DNA from: Robiginitomaculum sp.
GTDB lineage: Bacteria; Pseudomonadota; Alphaproteobacteria; Caulobacterales; Maricaulaceae
Length of the DNA: 36,506 bases
NCBI GenBank assembly: GCA_016763185.1
Contig: JAESUG010000024.1
Span: forward strand, 1 to 36,506
Direction: 5' to 3'
This document shows positions 17,690-28,384 of this stretch, in pieces. The translations under genes were made by a program, and so were the position numbers. Under the pieces are notes generated by a model that was given only the letters and a program-made list of their open reading frames with translations, did no database searches and had not been told where the DNA came from. Each line of letters begins with the position of its first letter. Positions within the stretch are counted from its first letter, which is position 1.

Positions 17690-17829
17690 GGTAAGCGAAG
17701 CAGAGGGCAAACCCGATACAAATCCTCCTCTGGCATCATTCTAGTATAAATCCAATCTACCGTCACCCCAATACAAATCGGGGTCCAATTTTGCGGGGGG
17801 AAGGACTTTCTAGTCACGTATTCACTGCG

Positions 17830-18009
17830 GGCGGCTTCGCCAACTTCTTAGCAAGAAGCACCCCCTCCGCCGGCTTCGCCAAGTTTTTGCTAAGAAGCAC
17901 CCCCTCCGGCGGCTTCGCCAACTTCTTAGTAAGAAGCACCCCCTCCGCCGGCTTCGCCAAGTTTTTGCTAAGAAGCGCCCCCTCCGACGGCTTCGCCGCC
18001 ACCTCCCCC
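17830..18009. repeat. 39-bp tandem repeat array (4 full units plus a degenerate 5th), alternating A/B subtypes giving a 78-bp superperiod
   Basis: Units start at 17830, 17869, 17908, 17947 and 17986 (partial). Core GGCGGCTTCGCC..AAGAAGCACCCCCTCC. Units 1/3 differ at one base and units 2/4 differ at one base. Confidence 0.93.
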
Positions 18010-18045
18010 ATCAAGAGGGAAGATAAGAAGAGTTCGGGCATTCAA

Positions 18046-18141
18046 CCCCGGTCCCCGGCCCTCGCGCCGGGGTCCAGCCTTTTGAGAAATTTTTCATACG
18101 GCACAAAGAACTGGACCCCGGCTCAAGGCCGGGGACCGGGG
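18046..18141. repeat. Large GC-rich inverted repeat (arms 18046-18077 and 18111-18141)
   Basis: CCCCGGTCCCCGGCCctcgcgCCGGGGTCCAG ... CTGGACCCCGGctcaaGGCCGGGGACCGGGG; arms complementary except for the short centre, loop about 33 nt. Confidence 0.92.
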
Positions 18142-18182
18142 TATGGGAATAGGATTGCTGAATCAACCGGCTCTCGGCTGTG

Positions 18183-18262
18183 CCAAATTCCTGGGAAACT
18201 AAATTCCTAGGAAGTCAAATTTCTAGGAAGCCAAATTCCTAGGAAGCCAAATTTCTAGAAAA
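18183..18262. repeat. 16-bp tandem repeat, 5 units
   Basis: Units at 18183, 18199, 18215, 18231 and 18247; consensus CCAAATTCCTAGGAAG, with CCTAGG palindrome in two units. Confidence 0.9.
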
Positions 18263-22274: not shown

Positions 22275-22353
22275 TCAAAGTTTGCTTCCAAAATGTTTCA
22301 TCAACCCGTACAAGACTGCATAAGCTGCCACACTAGCCATTGTCCACCTGCAC

Positions 22354-23355
22354 ATGACATTTCACATCGAAGATATTTATCTACAAAACCCGGTATTGCT
22401 GGCACCGATGTCTGGCGTGACGGATCTACCCTTTCGCAATCTGGTGCGCAAATTGGGCGCAGGCTTGGTGATTAGCGAAATGACCGCGAGCGAGCAATTG
22501 GTATTGGGCCGCACTGATATGGTCCGTAAAATCACTCAAGATAGCTCAGGGCCATTTGTGGTGCAATTGGCTGGCCGCGAGGCGAAATGGATGGCAGCGG
22601 GCGCAAAGCTCGCCGTTGCTGCCGGTGCTGATATAATCGACATGAATATGGGCTGTCCGGCCCGCCATGTAACCAAAGGCGCATCTGGCTCGGCATTGAT
22701 GCGTGATTTGGACCACGCCATGACCTTGGTCGAGGCGGTGATCGGTGCGGTTGAGGTGCCGGTTACGTTAAAAATGCGCTTGGGCTGGGACCACCAATCG
22801 CTCAATGCTCCAGAATTGGCGCGCCGGGCCGAGAGTGCCGGGATTGCGATGATCACCGTTCATGGGCGAACCCGGTGCCAGTTTTACAAGGGCCAAGCCG
22901 ATTGGAACGCCGTTCGCGCCGTTCGCGAGGTCATTGATGTGCCTTTGGTGGTCAATGGCGATATTGGCACCACGGCCGAGGCCAGAGCCGCCCTTGCGCA
23001 ATCGGGAGCAGACGGCGTAATGGTCGGGCGCAAAGCTTGTGGGCGGCCTTGGTTGCCGGGCTATATTGCCAATGAGTTGGCTGGAAAATCAGCAGGTGTT
23101 CCAAACCTTTCGCAGCAACTTGACTTTTTGCTAGAGCAATTCTCTGGGAGTTTGGATTTATATGGGCCAATTCTTGGGGTAAAAATGTTTCGCAAACATA
23201 TTGCTTGGACGGTCGATGCCGCATTTGCCGGCGCTATGGATTGTGCGAAATACACGAAACACCGAGGTCTCTTGTGCCGGTTGTCAGAGCCAGAACAAAT
23301 TCGGGATGGTTTGAGCGAAATGTTTCTTCAACCCAATCATCAGGCATGGATGTAG
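22354..23355 (+). CDS. dusB: tRNA-dihydrouridine synthase (DusB/NifR3 family)
   Basis: NPVLLAPMSGVTDLPFRNLVRKLGAGLVISEM, DIIDMNMGCPARHVTKGASGSALM, ITVHGRTRCQFYKGQADW. Confidence 0.94.
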   Translation: MTFHIEDIYLQNPVLLAPMSGVTDLPFRNLVRKLGAGLVISEMTASEQLVLGRTDMVRKITQDSSGPFVVQLAGREAKWMAAGAKLAVAAGADIIDMNMGCPARHVTKGASGSALMRDLDHAMTLVEAVIGAVEVPVTLKMRLGWDHQSLNAPELARRAESAGIAMITVHGRTRCQFYKGQADWNAVRAVREVIDVPLVVNGDIGTTAEARAALAQSGADGVMVGRKACGRPWLPGYIANELAGKSAGVPNLSQQLDFLLEQFSGSLDLYGPILGVKMFRKHIAWTVDAAFAGAMDCAKYTKHRGLLCRLSEPEQIRDGLSEMFLQPNHQAWM

Positions 23356-23356
23356 T

Positions 23357-24685
23357 ATGCCAACCAAACCCAAAATCATCATTGCGAATGGCGAGCCAAT
23401 CGGGCGAGCCAATCTGTCTCGTGATATTGCCGCATTGGGGTATCAGGTGCGCGCAACTGATGATTTGTCTAGGGTGCTTGAATGGGTAAAAAACGATGTA
23501 TTTCAATTGGTTTTGCTGGATGTTGACCTGTTTGATGCCCAGCGCAATGCATTTGATGTATTACAAGAAATTTGCCGCAAACAGCCCCATTGTCCGGTCA
23601 TCGCTCTTGGCGGTAAAAATACAGTATTGTCATCCTTGCTGGCGGCACGTTTTGGGGCGATAGATTTTTATGCGAAACCCTATAGTTTTTCCCAATTGGC
23701 CTCGTCAATTGCCAATGCATTGGCCAAGCCAAAATCTAATTTGCTAAAACCATCCATGTCGCAATCGGTTCCACTGGAAGGCAAGTCACCAGCCATGCAA
23801 TTGGTGTTTCGCTTAACTGCCAAAGCCGCGATGTCTAACCATCCATTGCTGATTGATGGAGCAGGGGGGTCAGGTAAATTTCTGTTGGCACAGATCATCA
23901 GCAGGTATGGCAAAGCTGAAAAAGGGGTGCAGTGCACATTGCTCCCCAGCACCAAAATCACCCAGATCGAACAGAAATTGGATCAAGACAATACCGGTCC
24001 GGGCGGTGTTGTGCTGCTTCGTCGGCTTGAGCATTTCTCACCAGATGTACAAGTTTGGCTATGCGATTGGTTCGATCAAAATGAAAATCACAGAAACCCG
24101 ATGCGAGTGATTGCAACATGTTCGGATCAAGAATTGCTTGGTGATGAGCCTAAATCCATTATGCCAGATTTACTAAATAGACTTAATGTATTGCGAATTC
24201 GAATGCCCGATTTGCATGATCGGCAAGAAGATATTCCAGATTTGGCACTGCTTTTCCTTGGCGCCGCATCGAACTATCAAATGAGTATAAGCGTCCCAGC
24301 GCAAAAAATGTTGCACCAGCTTGCATGGCCCGGAAATGTTCGTCAGCTAAAGAATGTAATGACTTGTGCCGCAACTATGTTTGATCAATCGGTCATCGGA
24401 ACAAATGAGCTGATGGAGCTATTAGAACAACCAACACCAAGCAACCAGCCGCCATCATCGTTTATCGCCAATATCGCGCTTCATTTACCACAAGAGTTAG
24501 AACTACGTCGGGACGCGCGATACCCTCATTTACACCAAGAAATTTTAGGCGCGGTGGAGCGGGTTTTACTGCAAATGGTGCTGGAACACGTGAACTATAA
24601 TCAAGTGCAAGCGGCAAGAAGGCTCGGTATCAATCGAAACACCTTACGCAAGAAAATACTAGAGTACGGGTTGAACAATACATAG
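23357..24685 (+). CDS. Divergent NtrC-like protein: receiver + degenerate AAA+ + Fis-type HTH
   Basis: Receiver keeps LVLLDVDLFD and AKP. AAA+ has P-loop GAGGSGKF but no GAFTGA, and Walker B reads GGVVLLRRLEHF. C-terminal Fis HTH QAARRLGINRNTLRKKI. Sits in the dusB-(ntrB)-ntrC-ntrY-ntrX locus. Confidence 0.88.
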   Translation: MPTKPKIIIANGEPIGRANLSRDIAALGYQVRATDDLSRVLEWVKNDVFQLVLLDVDLFDAQRNAFDVLQEICRKQPHCPVIALGGKNTVLSSLLAARFGAIDFYAKPYSFSQLASSIANALAKPKSNLLKPSMSQSVPLEGKSPAMQLVFRLTAKAAMSNHPLLIDGAGGSGKFLLAQIISRYGKAEKGVQCTLLPSTKITQIEQKLDQDNTGPGGVVLLRRLEHFSPDVQVWLCDWFDQNENHRNPMRVIATCSDQELLGDEPKSIMPDLLNRLNVLRIRMPDLHDRQEDIPDLALLFLGAASNYQMSISVPAQKMLHQLAWPGNVRQLKNVMTCAATMFDQSVIGTNELMELLEQPTPSNQPPSSFIANIALHLPQELELRRDARYPHLHQEILGAVERVLLQMVLEHVNYNQVQAARRLGINRNTLRKKILEYGLNNT

Positions 24686-24764
24686 TGACATTGGTGCAAC
24701 AATGTGTTGATATTAAGCAACACCTAATGCATAGCCTTCGTTGTTATCGGTACGTATTGAGCAT

Positions 24765-26990
24765 ATGAGCATTGTATCCGCATCTAATCCTGTTGCTGAG
24801 AGATTTTTTCGGCCACTTACTTTGTTGTCGTCAGCCTTTTTCGGGACGCTGTATGCGCTGAGCATTACGGTGGCCATTTTATGTGCTTATTTTGCATTGT
24901 CCGGCGCGGGTAGGCTGGGGCCGGCCAGTCAGTTATTGTTTTTAATTTTATTGGCAAATTTATTCCTTATTCTTGGGTTGGCTGGGTATCAGGCGATCCG
25001 ATTATTTCGATTAATGCGCCCGGCACCCGGCGATCAATTTGCGCCAAGACTGCACGTTCGATTTGCCATATTGTTTAGTGGCGCAGCTATTTTACCGGCC
25101 ATTGTTGTTGGCGTTTTCTTTGCCGTAGTTTATTCGCAAGGCATTGAAAGTTGGTTTTCGCCCGTTGTTGAGACCGCCGTTGATCGTGCTGAAACAGTTG
25201 CTGAGGCCGCCTTTAATGCCGAGCGTGATGAAGTGGTAAGCGAAATCCGGCCAATGGCCATTGATTTAAATCACCCGCAGGCTGCCGCTTACCTACAAGA
25301 CGGGCCAATTGTTTATACCAGCTATTTGAAGCTACAAGCGGAACGACGTTTTTTTTCGGCGGCGTATATTATTAATGGTGCGGGCACCATTTTGTCGGCG
25401 GTTGAGCTTGATGATGCACCGTCATTTGCTGCGCCAACCATTGAAGCCCTCGAAGCAGCGACTACAGGTAGTATCAATTTGCATTTTCAAAACGAACAAA
25501 ACCTGATCCGAGGTCTGTACCGGCTACGTGCTTATGATGATGCGTATCTGTACGTGGCCCGATACGCCACCAGCGGCAGTTTGTTCAACCTGGTCGCTGC
25601 CCAAGAAGCACGCAATGCATATCGCGAGGCCAACTCACAACGAGGACGGCTGACCCGTTCCTTTGCCTTAGTGTATTCGGAGATTGCACTGCTGGTATTG
25701 ATCGGCGCAATTTGGGTTGGATTGCTCGCGGCGAACCAAATCGTCTACCCTATTGGCCGCTTGGCCCAAGCCGCGCATCGGGTTCGGGATGGCGATTTAA
25801 ATGTACGCGTACGGCCCGGCACCCAAAATGATGAAATGGCTAGCTTGGCTCGTGATTTTAATGAAATGACCAGCAGATTGGCGACCCAACGTGACGAGTT
25901 GATTGCGGCCCGCGATGATTCAGAACATCGAAGACGATTTACGGAGACGGTTTTGTCTGGTGTGAGCGCGGGGGTTTTTGGGATTGATCAAAATTTTAAT
26001 ATTACATTGGCTAATGTATCGGCTTGCGAATTATTAGACTTGGATATCGAAACCATTATTGGGCAGGATATTCATGATATTGCCCCGTTTTTTGGTGGGC
26101 TATTAGACCAAGTGTCGTCATCGGGGAAAACTCCAATTCATGGGTTTATTGAGTTATCCGAAAACAAACGAAATCTGATGCTGAACGTCAATATCACTCC
26201 CGAAGGCGATAAGGGTGCCAAGGGCTTGGTGATTACCTTTGACGATATGAGTAAGCTGGTATCCGACCAACGAAGTGCAGCATGGCGCGAAGTGGCCAAG
26301 CGCATTGCTCATGAAATCCGTAACCCACTAACGCCCATCCAGTTATCAGCGGAACGGTTGCGTCGAAAATACCGTAATGAAATCACCACCAATCCAGCTG
26401 TTTTTGATCGTTGTATAGACACCATTGTGCGACAAGTTGGGGATATTGGCCGGATGGTTGATGAGTTTTCGTCTTTTGCGCGGATGCCAGTGCCAAAAAT
26501 TGAGACGGTAGAATTACGTGAGCTGATCCAAGAAACCCTGTTTGGCCAGCAAGTCGCTTTCCCGGACGTGGAATTTGTATCCACGCCCGCAGAGTTTGAA
26601 ATTTTGGTTGATTGCGACGCACGTCTTTCAGCGCAGGCGCTGTTAAATATCTTAAAAAATGCAGCAGAATCAACGTCGACTATGCTTACCCGTCCAAAAA
26701 ATAGCAAACCAATGGTAGAAGTTCAGGTGTCATGCCAAGGCGAATATGCCTTGGTTGATATTATCGACAATGGACCCGGTTGGCCAACAAGTCATCGCCA
26801 ACGATTGGTCGAGCCATATTATACAACCCATCAAAAAGGTACGGGTCTTGGTTTAGCTATCGTGAAAAGAATTTTGGAAGACCATAACGGAAAGCTCGAA
26901 TTGTTAGATCGCAAGGACGGCAATACCGGCGCTGTGGTTCGCCTTAGCTTTCCTCTTAGTAAAATCAATGTAAATCAGGAGGTAATCTGA
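24765..26990 (+). CDS. ntrY: NtrY-family membrane sensor histidine kinase
   Basis: N-terminal TMs, HAMP (ANQIVYPIGRLAQAAHRVRDGDLNVRVRPG), PAS, HisKA (AKRIAHEIRNPLTPIQLSAERL), HATPase (DNGPGWP, GTGLGLAIVKRI). Start probably MSIVSASN at 24765. Confidence 0.9.
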   Translation: MSIVSASNPVAERFFRPLTLLSSAFFGTLYALSITVAILCAYFALSGAGRLGPASQLLFLILLANLFLILGLAGYQAIRLFRLMRPAPGDQFAPRLHVRFAILFSGAAILPAIVVGVFFAVVYSQGIESWFSPVVETAVDRAETVAEAAFNAERDEVVSEIRPMAIDLNHPQAAAYLQDGPIVYTSYLKLQAERRFFSAAYIINGAGTILSAVELDDAPSFAAPTIEALEAATTGSINLHFQNEQNLIRGLYRLRAYDDAYLYVARYATSGSLFNLVAAQEARNAYREANSQRGRLTRSFALVYSEIALLVLIGAIWVGLLAANQIVYPIGRLAQAAHRVRDGDLNVRVRPGTQNDEMASLARDFNEMTSRLATQRDELIAARDDSEHRRRFTETVLSGVSAGVFGIDQNFNITLANVSACELLDLDIETIIGQDIHDIAPFFGGLLDQVSSSGKTPIHGFIELSENKRNLMLNVNITPEGDKGAKGLVITFDDMSKLVSDQRSAAWREVAKRIAHEIRNPLTPIQLSAERLRRKYRNEITTNPAVFDRCIDTIVRQVGDIGRMVDEFSSFARMPVPKIETVELRELIQETLFGQQVAFPDVEFVSTPAEFEILVDCDARLSAQALLNILKNAAESTSTMLTRPKNSKPMVEVQVSCQGEYALVDIIDNGPGWPTSHRQRLVEPYYTTHQKGTGLGLAIVKRILEDHNGKLELLDRKDGNTGAVVRLSFPLSKINVNQEVI

Positions 26991-28384
26991 TGTCAGCAGA
27001 TATTTTAATTGTTGATGACGAAGAAGATATTCGAGAGCTGGTTAGCGATATTTTGGAAGATGAAGGCTTCCAAACCAGAACTGCGGCTAATGCTACTCAG
27101 GCGTTAAACGAGGTGAAAACCCGTAAACCAGCATTGATTATATTGGACGTCTGGCTGCAAGGCAGCGAGCTGGATGGATTAGGCGTGCTTGAAGAAGTAA
27201 AGCGACTGGACCCGCTGTTGCCGGTGATTTTAATTTCAGGCCATGGCACTATCGAGACCGCAGTTGCGGCTATTCGCAAAGGGGCTTTTGATTTTATTGA
27301 AAAGCCGTTTAAGAGCGAACGGTTATTGCTGTTGATTAGGCGCGCGTTGGAGCTTCGCAAATTACAACGAGAAAACACGGCTTTAAAAGCCAAAGATATC
27401 GCCAATCTTGAATTGATTGGTACGTCATCGGGGATCAATGGTATTCGCCATATTATTCAAAAGGTCGCTTTGGCCAATTCACGGGTCATGGTGCTAGGTG
27501 GCTTGGGTGTTGGTAAGGAAACCGTTGCCCGTAAAATCCACATAGAGTCTCATCGTAAGGATGCAGAATTTGTGGTGGTCAACGCCGCGGCCCTAAGTCC
27601 AGATACGGTGGAGCAAGTGCTGTTTGGGGTTGAGGACCAACAGGGACGTACCACTAAAACCGGATTATTTGAGCAAGCGCATATGGGTACCTTGTATATT
27701 GATGAAGTGGCTGAAATGCCAATGCAAACCCAAGGCAAATTATTGCGCATATTGGTGAGTCAGCGCTTTTACCGAGTGGGCGGTAAAACGCCGGTTGATG
27801 TTGATGTTCGGGTGATCAGTTCTACGTCCCGCGATTTACGGATTGAAATTGCCAATGAGCGGTTTCGCGAGGACTTATATCACCGTCTAAATGTTGTTCC
27901 AGTGGTTGTGCCTTCACTAAATGAACGTCGTGAAGACATCCCTGATTTGGTACGGTATTTTGCAGACCGGATTGCGCAAGGCTCTGGATTGGCCAAGCGC
28001 GAAATTGCTGAAGATGTGATGGGTTGGATACAGGCCGCGCAATGGCCGGGGAATATCCGTCAATTGCGTAATTATGTTGAACGATTGATGATATTGGCCA
28101 AGGGAAACAATGATCAAGCCATTACGTTAGCCTTTATGCCCAAAGAAAACGATGCATCATCCCAGCCTAACGGCATCCGTGTGGACCGTTTGGTTAGTTT
28201 AAGTTTACGCGATGCCCGCGTTGAATTTGAGCGCGAATATCTAGCCGTTCAAATCAACCGGTTTGGCGGCAATATTTCACGAACTGCCACCTATATCGGT
28301 ATGGAAAGATCTGCGTTACACCGCAAATTAAAAACATTAGGTATCGGCTCAAACAAGCAGCAAAATCAGGAGGCAGAAGAATGA
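26990..28384 (+). CDS. ntrX: NtrX-family response regulator
   Basis: Canonical receiver (ILIVDDEEDIREL...LIILDVWLQ...EKPF), AAA+ with Walker B GTLYIDEVAEMP, no GAFTGA, Fis HTH. Confidence 0.92.
   Translation: MSADILIVDDEEDIRELVSDILEDEGFQTRTAANATQALNEVKTRKPALIILDVWLQGSELDGLGVLEEVKRLDPLLPVILISGHGTIETAVAAIRKGAFDFIEKPFKSERLLLLIRRALELRKLQRENTALKAKDIANLELIGTSSGINGIRHIIQKVALANSRVMVLGGLGVGKETVARKIHIESHRKDAEFVVVNAAALSPDTVEQVLFGVEDQQGRTTKTGLFEQAHMGTLYIDEVAEMPMQTQGKLLRILVSQRFYRVGGKTPVDVDVRVISSTSRDLRIEIANERFREDLYHRLNVVPVVVPSLNERREDIPDLVRYFADRIAQGSGLAKREIAEDVMGWIQAAQWPGNIRQLRNYVERLMILAKGNNDQAITLAFMPKENDASSQPNGIRVDRLVSLSLRDARVEFEREYLAVQINRFGGNISRTATYIGMERSALHRKLKTLGIGSNKQQNQEAEE

Follow-up and report, generated by a model that had tools for sequence, protein, structure and literature searches.

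The ntr locus

The window, i.e. the whole stretch of 36,506 nucleotides analysed here, is part of a 2.47-Mb draft genome (93.6% complete) from a Robiginitomaculum-like genus of the Caulobacterales. In this window cinA-ispDF lies divergent from dusB-ntrC-ntrY-ntrX-trkA-trkH. The following parts of the locus are considered:

22275..22353, no strand: divergent intergenic region ispDF/dusB; the best match to an NtrC-type box has 4 mismatches, and the sister subclade has a box
22354..23355 (+): dusB (nifR3), first gene of the ntr operon (TIGR00737, 310.8 bits, cut-off 293.3)
23353..23359 (+): dusB/ntrC junction with one base between stop and ATG; site of ntrB in other genera (gene order, 40 relatives)
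23357..24685 (+): orphan, degenerate ntrC, 442 aa (ORF, Pfam, equivalog scores, alignment to relatives)
24741..26990 (+): ntrY, sensor kinase; the domain content is as usual and the H-box reads HEIRNPLTP (Pfam)
26990..28384 (+): ntrX; receiver, P-loop and Walker B (YIDE) are normal, GAFTGA is absent (NF051870, 693.8 bits, cut-off 600)

Position between dusB and ntrY-ntrX, together with closest homology to NtrC, identifies the 442-aa product as the NtrC orthologue. TIGR01818, the equivalog model for NtrC / NR(I), was still the best family for it, with a score of 202.7 bits that lies below the cut-off of 558.6. With Pfam, the receiver, AAA lid and HTH_8 domains all scored above their cut-offs, and PF00158 barely passed (23.3 bits vs 20.2) and matched in its P-loop half only. 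NtrX likewise has no GAFTGA (VLFGVEDQQGRTTK) and keeps its P-loop, Walker B and receiver residues.

Motifs of the window NtrC

The initial annotation had described the protein as an NtrC-like regulator with an eroded AAA+ engine. Upon checking the sequence we found the reading frame to be open and all of the motifs quoted there to be present (D55, AKP, GAGGSGKF, a Walker B without DE, IMPDLLNRLN and the Fis HTH). Their positions are:

23387..23395 (+): receiver acidic cluster N11-G12-E13, DDD or EDD in NtrB-bearing relatives (alignment)
23519..23521 (+): D55, phospho-acceptor position, present in 17/17 genus members (alignment)
23609..23611 (+): G85 where the receiver switch Ser/Thr is expected (alignment)
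23858..23881 (+): P-loop GAGGSGKF (residues 168-175), K174 kept; GK[F/Y] is peculiar to the subclade of the window (alignment)
24005..24034 (+): eroded Walker B GVVLLRRLEH, R222-R223 replacing DE (alignment)
24158..24187 (+): arginine-finger region IMPDLLNRLN; first Arg replaced by M269, second kept as R275 (alignment)
24341..24343 (+): sensor II R329 in GNVRQL, kept (alignment)
24596..24658 (+): Fis-type HTH with recognition helix GINRNTLRKK (HTH_8, 48.4 bits, 7.8e-13)

Within the receiver the active site, which comprises two acids, the Asp, the Ser/Thr and the Lys, is incomplete. We assigned the two acids through D11 and D12 of E. coli NtrC, which we take to be their counterparts; the first is then a Gly and the second a Glu. 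The acidic pair that had been reported as replaced is thus only half lost. The switch Ser/Thr is lost in addition (G85), a change beyond those described before, and D55 as well as the AKP lysine (K107) are present. In the AAA+ domain the Walker-B stretch reads GGVVLLRRLEHF with R222-R223 at the position of DE, and the GAFTGA loop is absent. An AlphaFold model calculated from 35 NtrC sequences (mean pLDDT 85, pTM 0.67) suggests that the receiver, AAA and HTH folds are kept; its domain placement is unreliable and ATP binding lies outside what it shows. The best PDB matches to the model (Foldseek) were NtrC1, NtrX, NtrC4 and LuxO, followed by VpsR and FleQ.

Absence of the kinase gene ntrB

The sample contains 24 ntrC-bearing genomes from outside the genus, and each of them carries ntrB, which separates dusB (if there is one) from ntrC. 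No ntrB was found at the locus in any of the 17 genus members (window species and 16 congeners), in which dusB and ntrC abut. Since the relatives are mostly draft genomes, several of them less than 90% complete, this survey rests on the agreement among them. An NtrB encoded elsewhere in the genome was ruled out with a profile built from 12 relatives: genome-wide, none of 18 genus members held a true NtrB, the best matches reaching E values of 1e-25 to 1e-36 and being NtrY in most members, while true NtrB elsewhere scores 1e-84 to 1e-156. Within our sample only this genus keeps ntrC alone. Both ntrB and ntrC were apparently lost in several genera of the order (G019, G020, G023, G033, G060, G062, G064, G066 and others).

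Stepwise erosion in genus and order

The loss of GAFTGA is ancestral and already known from Caulobacter: none of the NtrC proteins sampled from the order has the motif, and those of the family lack the whole loop-1 block. Further losses are common to the genus. In all 17 members D55 is kept, and both the leading acid of the receiver pair and the first arginine of the finger region are gone. In a tree of DusB, NtrY and NtrX the genus and its two subclades, A and B, each obtained a bootstrap of 100; in the tree of NtrC itself subclade A is not monophyletic. The ten species of subclade A keep the P-loop, and DE is exact in eight of them, the other two having EE and DN, respectively. Subclade B, i.e. 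the window species and six congeners, has lost DE throughout (7/7; RR or QR) as well as the receiver switch Ser/Thr (7/7). Its P-loop is GK[F/Y] wherever the residue is readable, and the receiver lysine is replaced by Arg in 4/7. With an open frame and a Walker-B loss common to seven species, a frameshift or assembly error is ruled out and the eroded state is a real feature of the gene.

A second clade without the Walker-B DE consists of seven NtrB-bearing genomes (L067, L068, L070-L074), with RR in five of them and a P-loop changed to GKR or GRA. Because this clade stands apart from subclade B in either tree, loss of DE probably arose at least twice. Among 121 NtrC sequences DE was kept in 20/20 with GAFTGA and missing in 33/101 without it (Fisher p=0.0016, not corrected for relatedness).

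Selection on the gene

For six congener pairs from both subclades, which do not include the window lineage, dN/dS of NtrC was 0.08-0.13 (0.10-0.13 for the pairs of subclade B), compared with 0.02-0.035 for NtrX and 0.08-0.10 for DusB in the same six pairs. Such low values argue against a pseudogene in the congeners. The domains of NtrC diverge to different extents. Within subclade B the AAA domain is 44% identical in NtrC vs 83% in NtrX of the identical genomes; for ntrB-bearing relatives the corresponding values are 74% vs 76%. The receiver (65%) and the HTH (59%) of NtrC are better kept in subclade B than its AAA domain. The recognition helix is near-invariant in the genus, GINRNT being invariant in 17 species.

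Dyad boxes at nitrogen genes

A search for classical GCAC/GTGC NtrC sites before glnB gave a single match (G003) in 14 genomes and no pattern. In the output of this search a dyad, TGCCTAAAATTTAGGCA, was spotted by eye upstream of glnB in the genus. This 17-bp dyad, TGCYTA-W5-TARGCA, is present upstream of glnBA, amt and, in subclade A, dusB-ntrC. Given how it was found at glnB, independent tests come from amt and dusB, where it recurs, and from ntrC-less genomes, in which it is absent. Exact TGCYTAWWWWWTARGCA matches in congeners (n=22) were all located at glnB (9), dusB (8) or amt (5). With up to one mismatch, 48 matches were obtained in congeners vs 14 for a backwards control; 3000 random stretches gave no exact match and 14 that deviated at one position. 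Each of the ten main-type Amt genes of congeners is preceded by a copy that is exact or off by a single base, and in subclade A the dyad lies within ~40 bp before dusB. No dyad was found before glnB in ntrC-less genomes (10 loci). The match at glnB was better than at these 10 loci both for 16 loci of ntrC-bearing genomes outside the genus (Mann-Whitney p=0.0013; one locus with a misplaced start is left out) and for the genus (p=3e-5), where the tests are not corrected for relatedness.

In geometry the dyad, TGC-N11-GCA, equals the enteric NtrC sites, and the Caulobacter ChIP motif has been described as related to the Fis and E. coli NtrC motifs. From sequence and distribution we consider the dyads candidate NtrC boxes.

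Among congeners of subclade B the box is present at amt in 4/4 amt-bearing genomes and at glnB in 4/6; none was found at dusB in the subclade. G012 and G016 have no box before glnB. The window species has a glnB box with two mismatches (TGCCTATTTTTTATACA) and no box before dusB. The only Amt gene of its genome (L316, contig C6) has a MiaB-like gene as neighbour and is unlike the Amt genes of the congeners; we set it aside as a native target since this contig looks foreign and could be contamination in the draft assembly. With a degenerate glnB box, no dusB box and no native Amt found, the regulon of the window species itself is uncertain. Upstream of its glnB (L239, ~2440-2490, contig C181) a perfect palindrome, TTTTTATACA-ATTAG-TGTATAAAAA, overlaps the degenerate box. 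In addition to GlnB, many genus members encode another one or two proteins that are weakly PII-like.

Proposed mode of action and alternatives

The nearest well-studied relative, NtrC of Caulobacter crescentus, shares the order, the operon position and the lack of a GAFTGA loop. It works at sigma-70 promoters (PMC10274813), binds the glnBA and glnK promoters and acts as activator and repressor (PMC10274813, PMC12421884). Growth on ammonium requires ntrB, D56, Walker A K178 and Walker B D235, while in complex medium cells without ntrB or D56 grow at an undiminished rate (PMC10274813), such that the unphosphorylated protein has some function. The window species differs in that it has no NtrB, no Walker-B acids and a damaged receiver pocket.

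We consider it probable, at roughly 0.6, that in this Robiginitomaculum-like genus the NtrC orthologue has turned into a one-component DNA-binding regulator without NtrB phospho-switch or ATP hydrolysis. In a first step the GAFTGA loop would have been lost in an ancestor whose NtrC acted, like that of Caulobacter, at sigma-70 promoters. Loss of ntrB in the genus would have followed, accompanied by loss of the first pocket acid of the receiver and of the first finger arginine. The subclade of the window would further have lost the Walker-B DE, the receiver switch Ser/Thr and the box before its own operon. Most likely the Fis HTH would bind the 17-bp dyad at glnBA and amt as a dimer or small oligomer, and the bound protein would alter transcription by contact or occlusion, without NtrB-driven phosphorylation or ATP hydrolysis.

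Individual parts of this scheme differ in strength. Inability of the window NtrC to hydrolyse ATP is strongly predicted from its sequence, because the single Walker-B substitution D235A inactivates Caulobacter NtrC for ammonium growth (PMC10274813). The claim that the protein cannot activate sigma-54 is well supported by the missing GAFTGA, though this state is ancestral in the order. A loss of sigma-54 from the genome was ruled out: the rpoN search proposed in the initial annotation found the gene together with three GAFTGA activators, so sigma-54 activation can proceed without the window NtrC. We favour a DNA-binding regulator at sigma-70 promoters since the unphosphorylated Caulobacter protein has some function. 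Activation by the window NtrC would need a changed mechanism because the ancestral activation, as in Caulobacter, needs NtrB and Walker B. In subclade A the position of the dusB box near the start codon suggests repression there. Of the role as DNA-binding repressor or architectural factor proposed initially, DNA binding is supported by the intact recognition helix, purifying selection and the boxes at nitrogen genes of congeners; the protein may act as repressor, activator or architectural factor.

A more far-reaching version holds that NtrC, once an AAA+ motor switched by a kinase, was remodelled genus-wide into a one-component regulator of nitrogen genes that does without phosphorylation or ATP hydrolysis. 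The change from DE to RR, independent in two lineages of the family, would then suggest that the arginines may have a positive role, such as retaining nucleotide or shutting the pocket while no hydrolysis takes place. We regard this version as tentative and rather doubtful.

Since the window NtrC retains D55 and K107 in the receiver as well as the P-loop lysine, R275 and R329, weak phosphorylation or nucleotide binding may still occur. The protein could still be switched, with ATP bound unhydrolysed and NtrY or acetyl phosphate acting on D55 to tune the oligomer. D55 is invariant in the genus, NtrY is intact and adjoins ntrC, and NtrC of Rhodobacter capsulatus reportedly needs ATP binding and not hydrolysis (cited in PMC10274813). 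However, the first pocket acid is lost in 17/17 and the switch Ser/Thr in 7/7 of subclade B, K107 is replaced by Arg in four of the latter, both Walker-B acids are lost and the cognate kinase is gone, which leaves such switching unlikely.

Alternatively, the gene may be on its way to being lost, decaying after the loss of ntrB and functionless in the window species. The complete absence of ntrBC from several genera of the order would agree with this, as would the weakened glnB box and missing dusB box of the window species. Decay is nevertheless hard to reconcile with an open frame in 17/17 species, a dN/dS of 0.08-0.13 in both subclades (congener pairs, not the window lineage alone), the near-invariant recognition helix and amt boxes in 4/4 amt-bearing congeners of subclade B, and we judge it quite improbable. 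Least probable is a non-hydrolysing partner in mixed oligomers with NtrX that gives only arginine finger and DNA tethering: ntrX with normal motifs including P-loop and Walker B is in the same cluster and the window NtrC keeps R275 and sensor II, but the AAA domain of NtrC diverges fast and that of NtrX does not, which is unexpected for an obligate interface.

Relation to known systems

The preferred reading, a DNA-binding regulator without NtrB-driven switching or hydrolysis, has partial counterparts elsewhere. NtrC of R. capsulatus has a large loop 1 deletion and activates at sigma-70 promoters; it differs, as cited in PMC10274813, in having its NtrB and in needing phosphorylation and ATP binding. 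The atypical bEBPs of the VspR/VpsR type from Vibrio cholerae also lack GAFTGA and act at sigma-70 promoters, and VspR reportedly needs neither ATP nor phosphorylation (cited in PMC10274813). Their targets are unrelated, and VpsR binds c-di-GMP. ChxR and HP1043 are orphan or pseudo-receiver regulators that have no cognate kinase or full pocket and bind DNA as dimers; they differ from the window NtrC in being OmpR-type without AAA+ domain. In a literature search of limited coverage no description of an orphan NtrC of this kind turned up.

The order thus provides a natural series from an NtrB-driven NtrC without GAFTGA through an orphan with intact Walker B to an orphan with an apparently dead ATPase. 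This series makes testable which role the AAA+ domain of a sigma-70-type NtrC has once sigma-54 is no longer remodelled, and whether a regulator can work without hydrolysis, with the dyad boxes as ready targets.

Elsewhere in the window, positions 17791-18210 hold an ORF whose translation consists of repeated peptides (SAGFAKFLLRSTPS...); it may represent a short repeat array or be non-coding.
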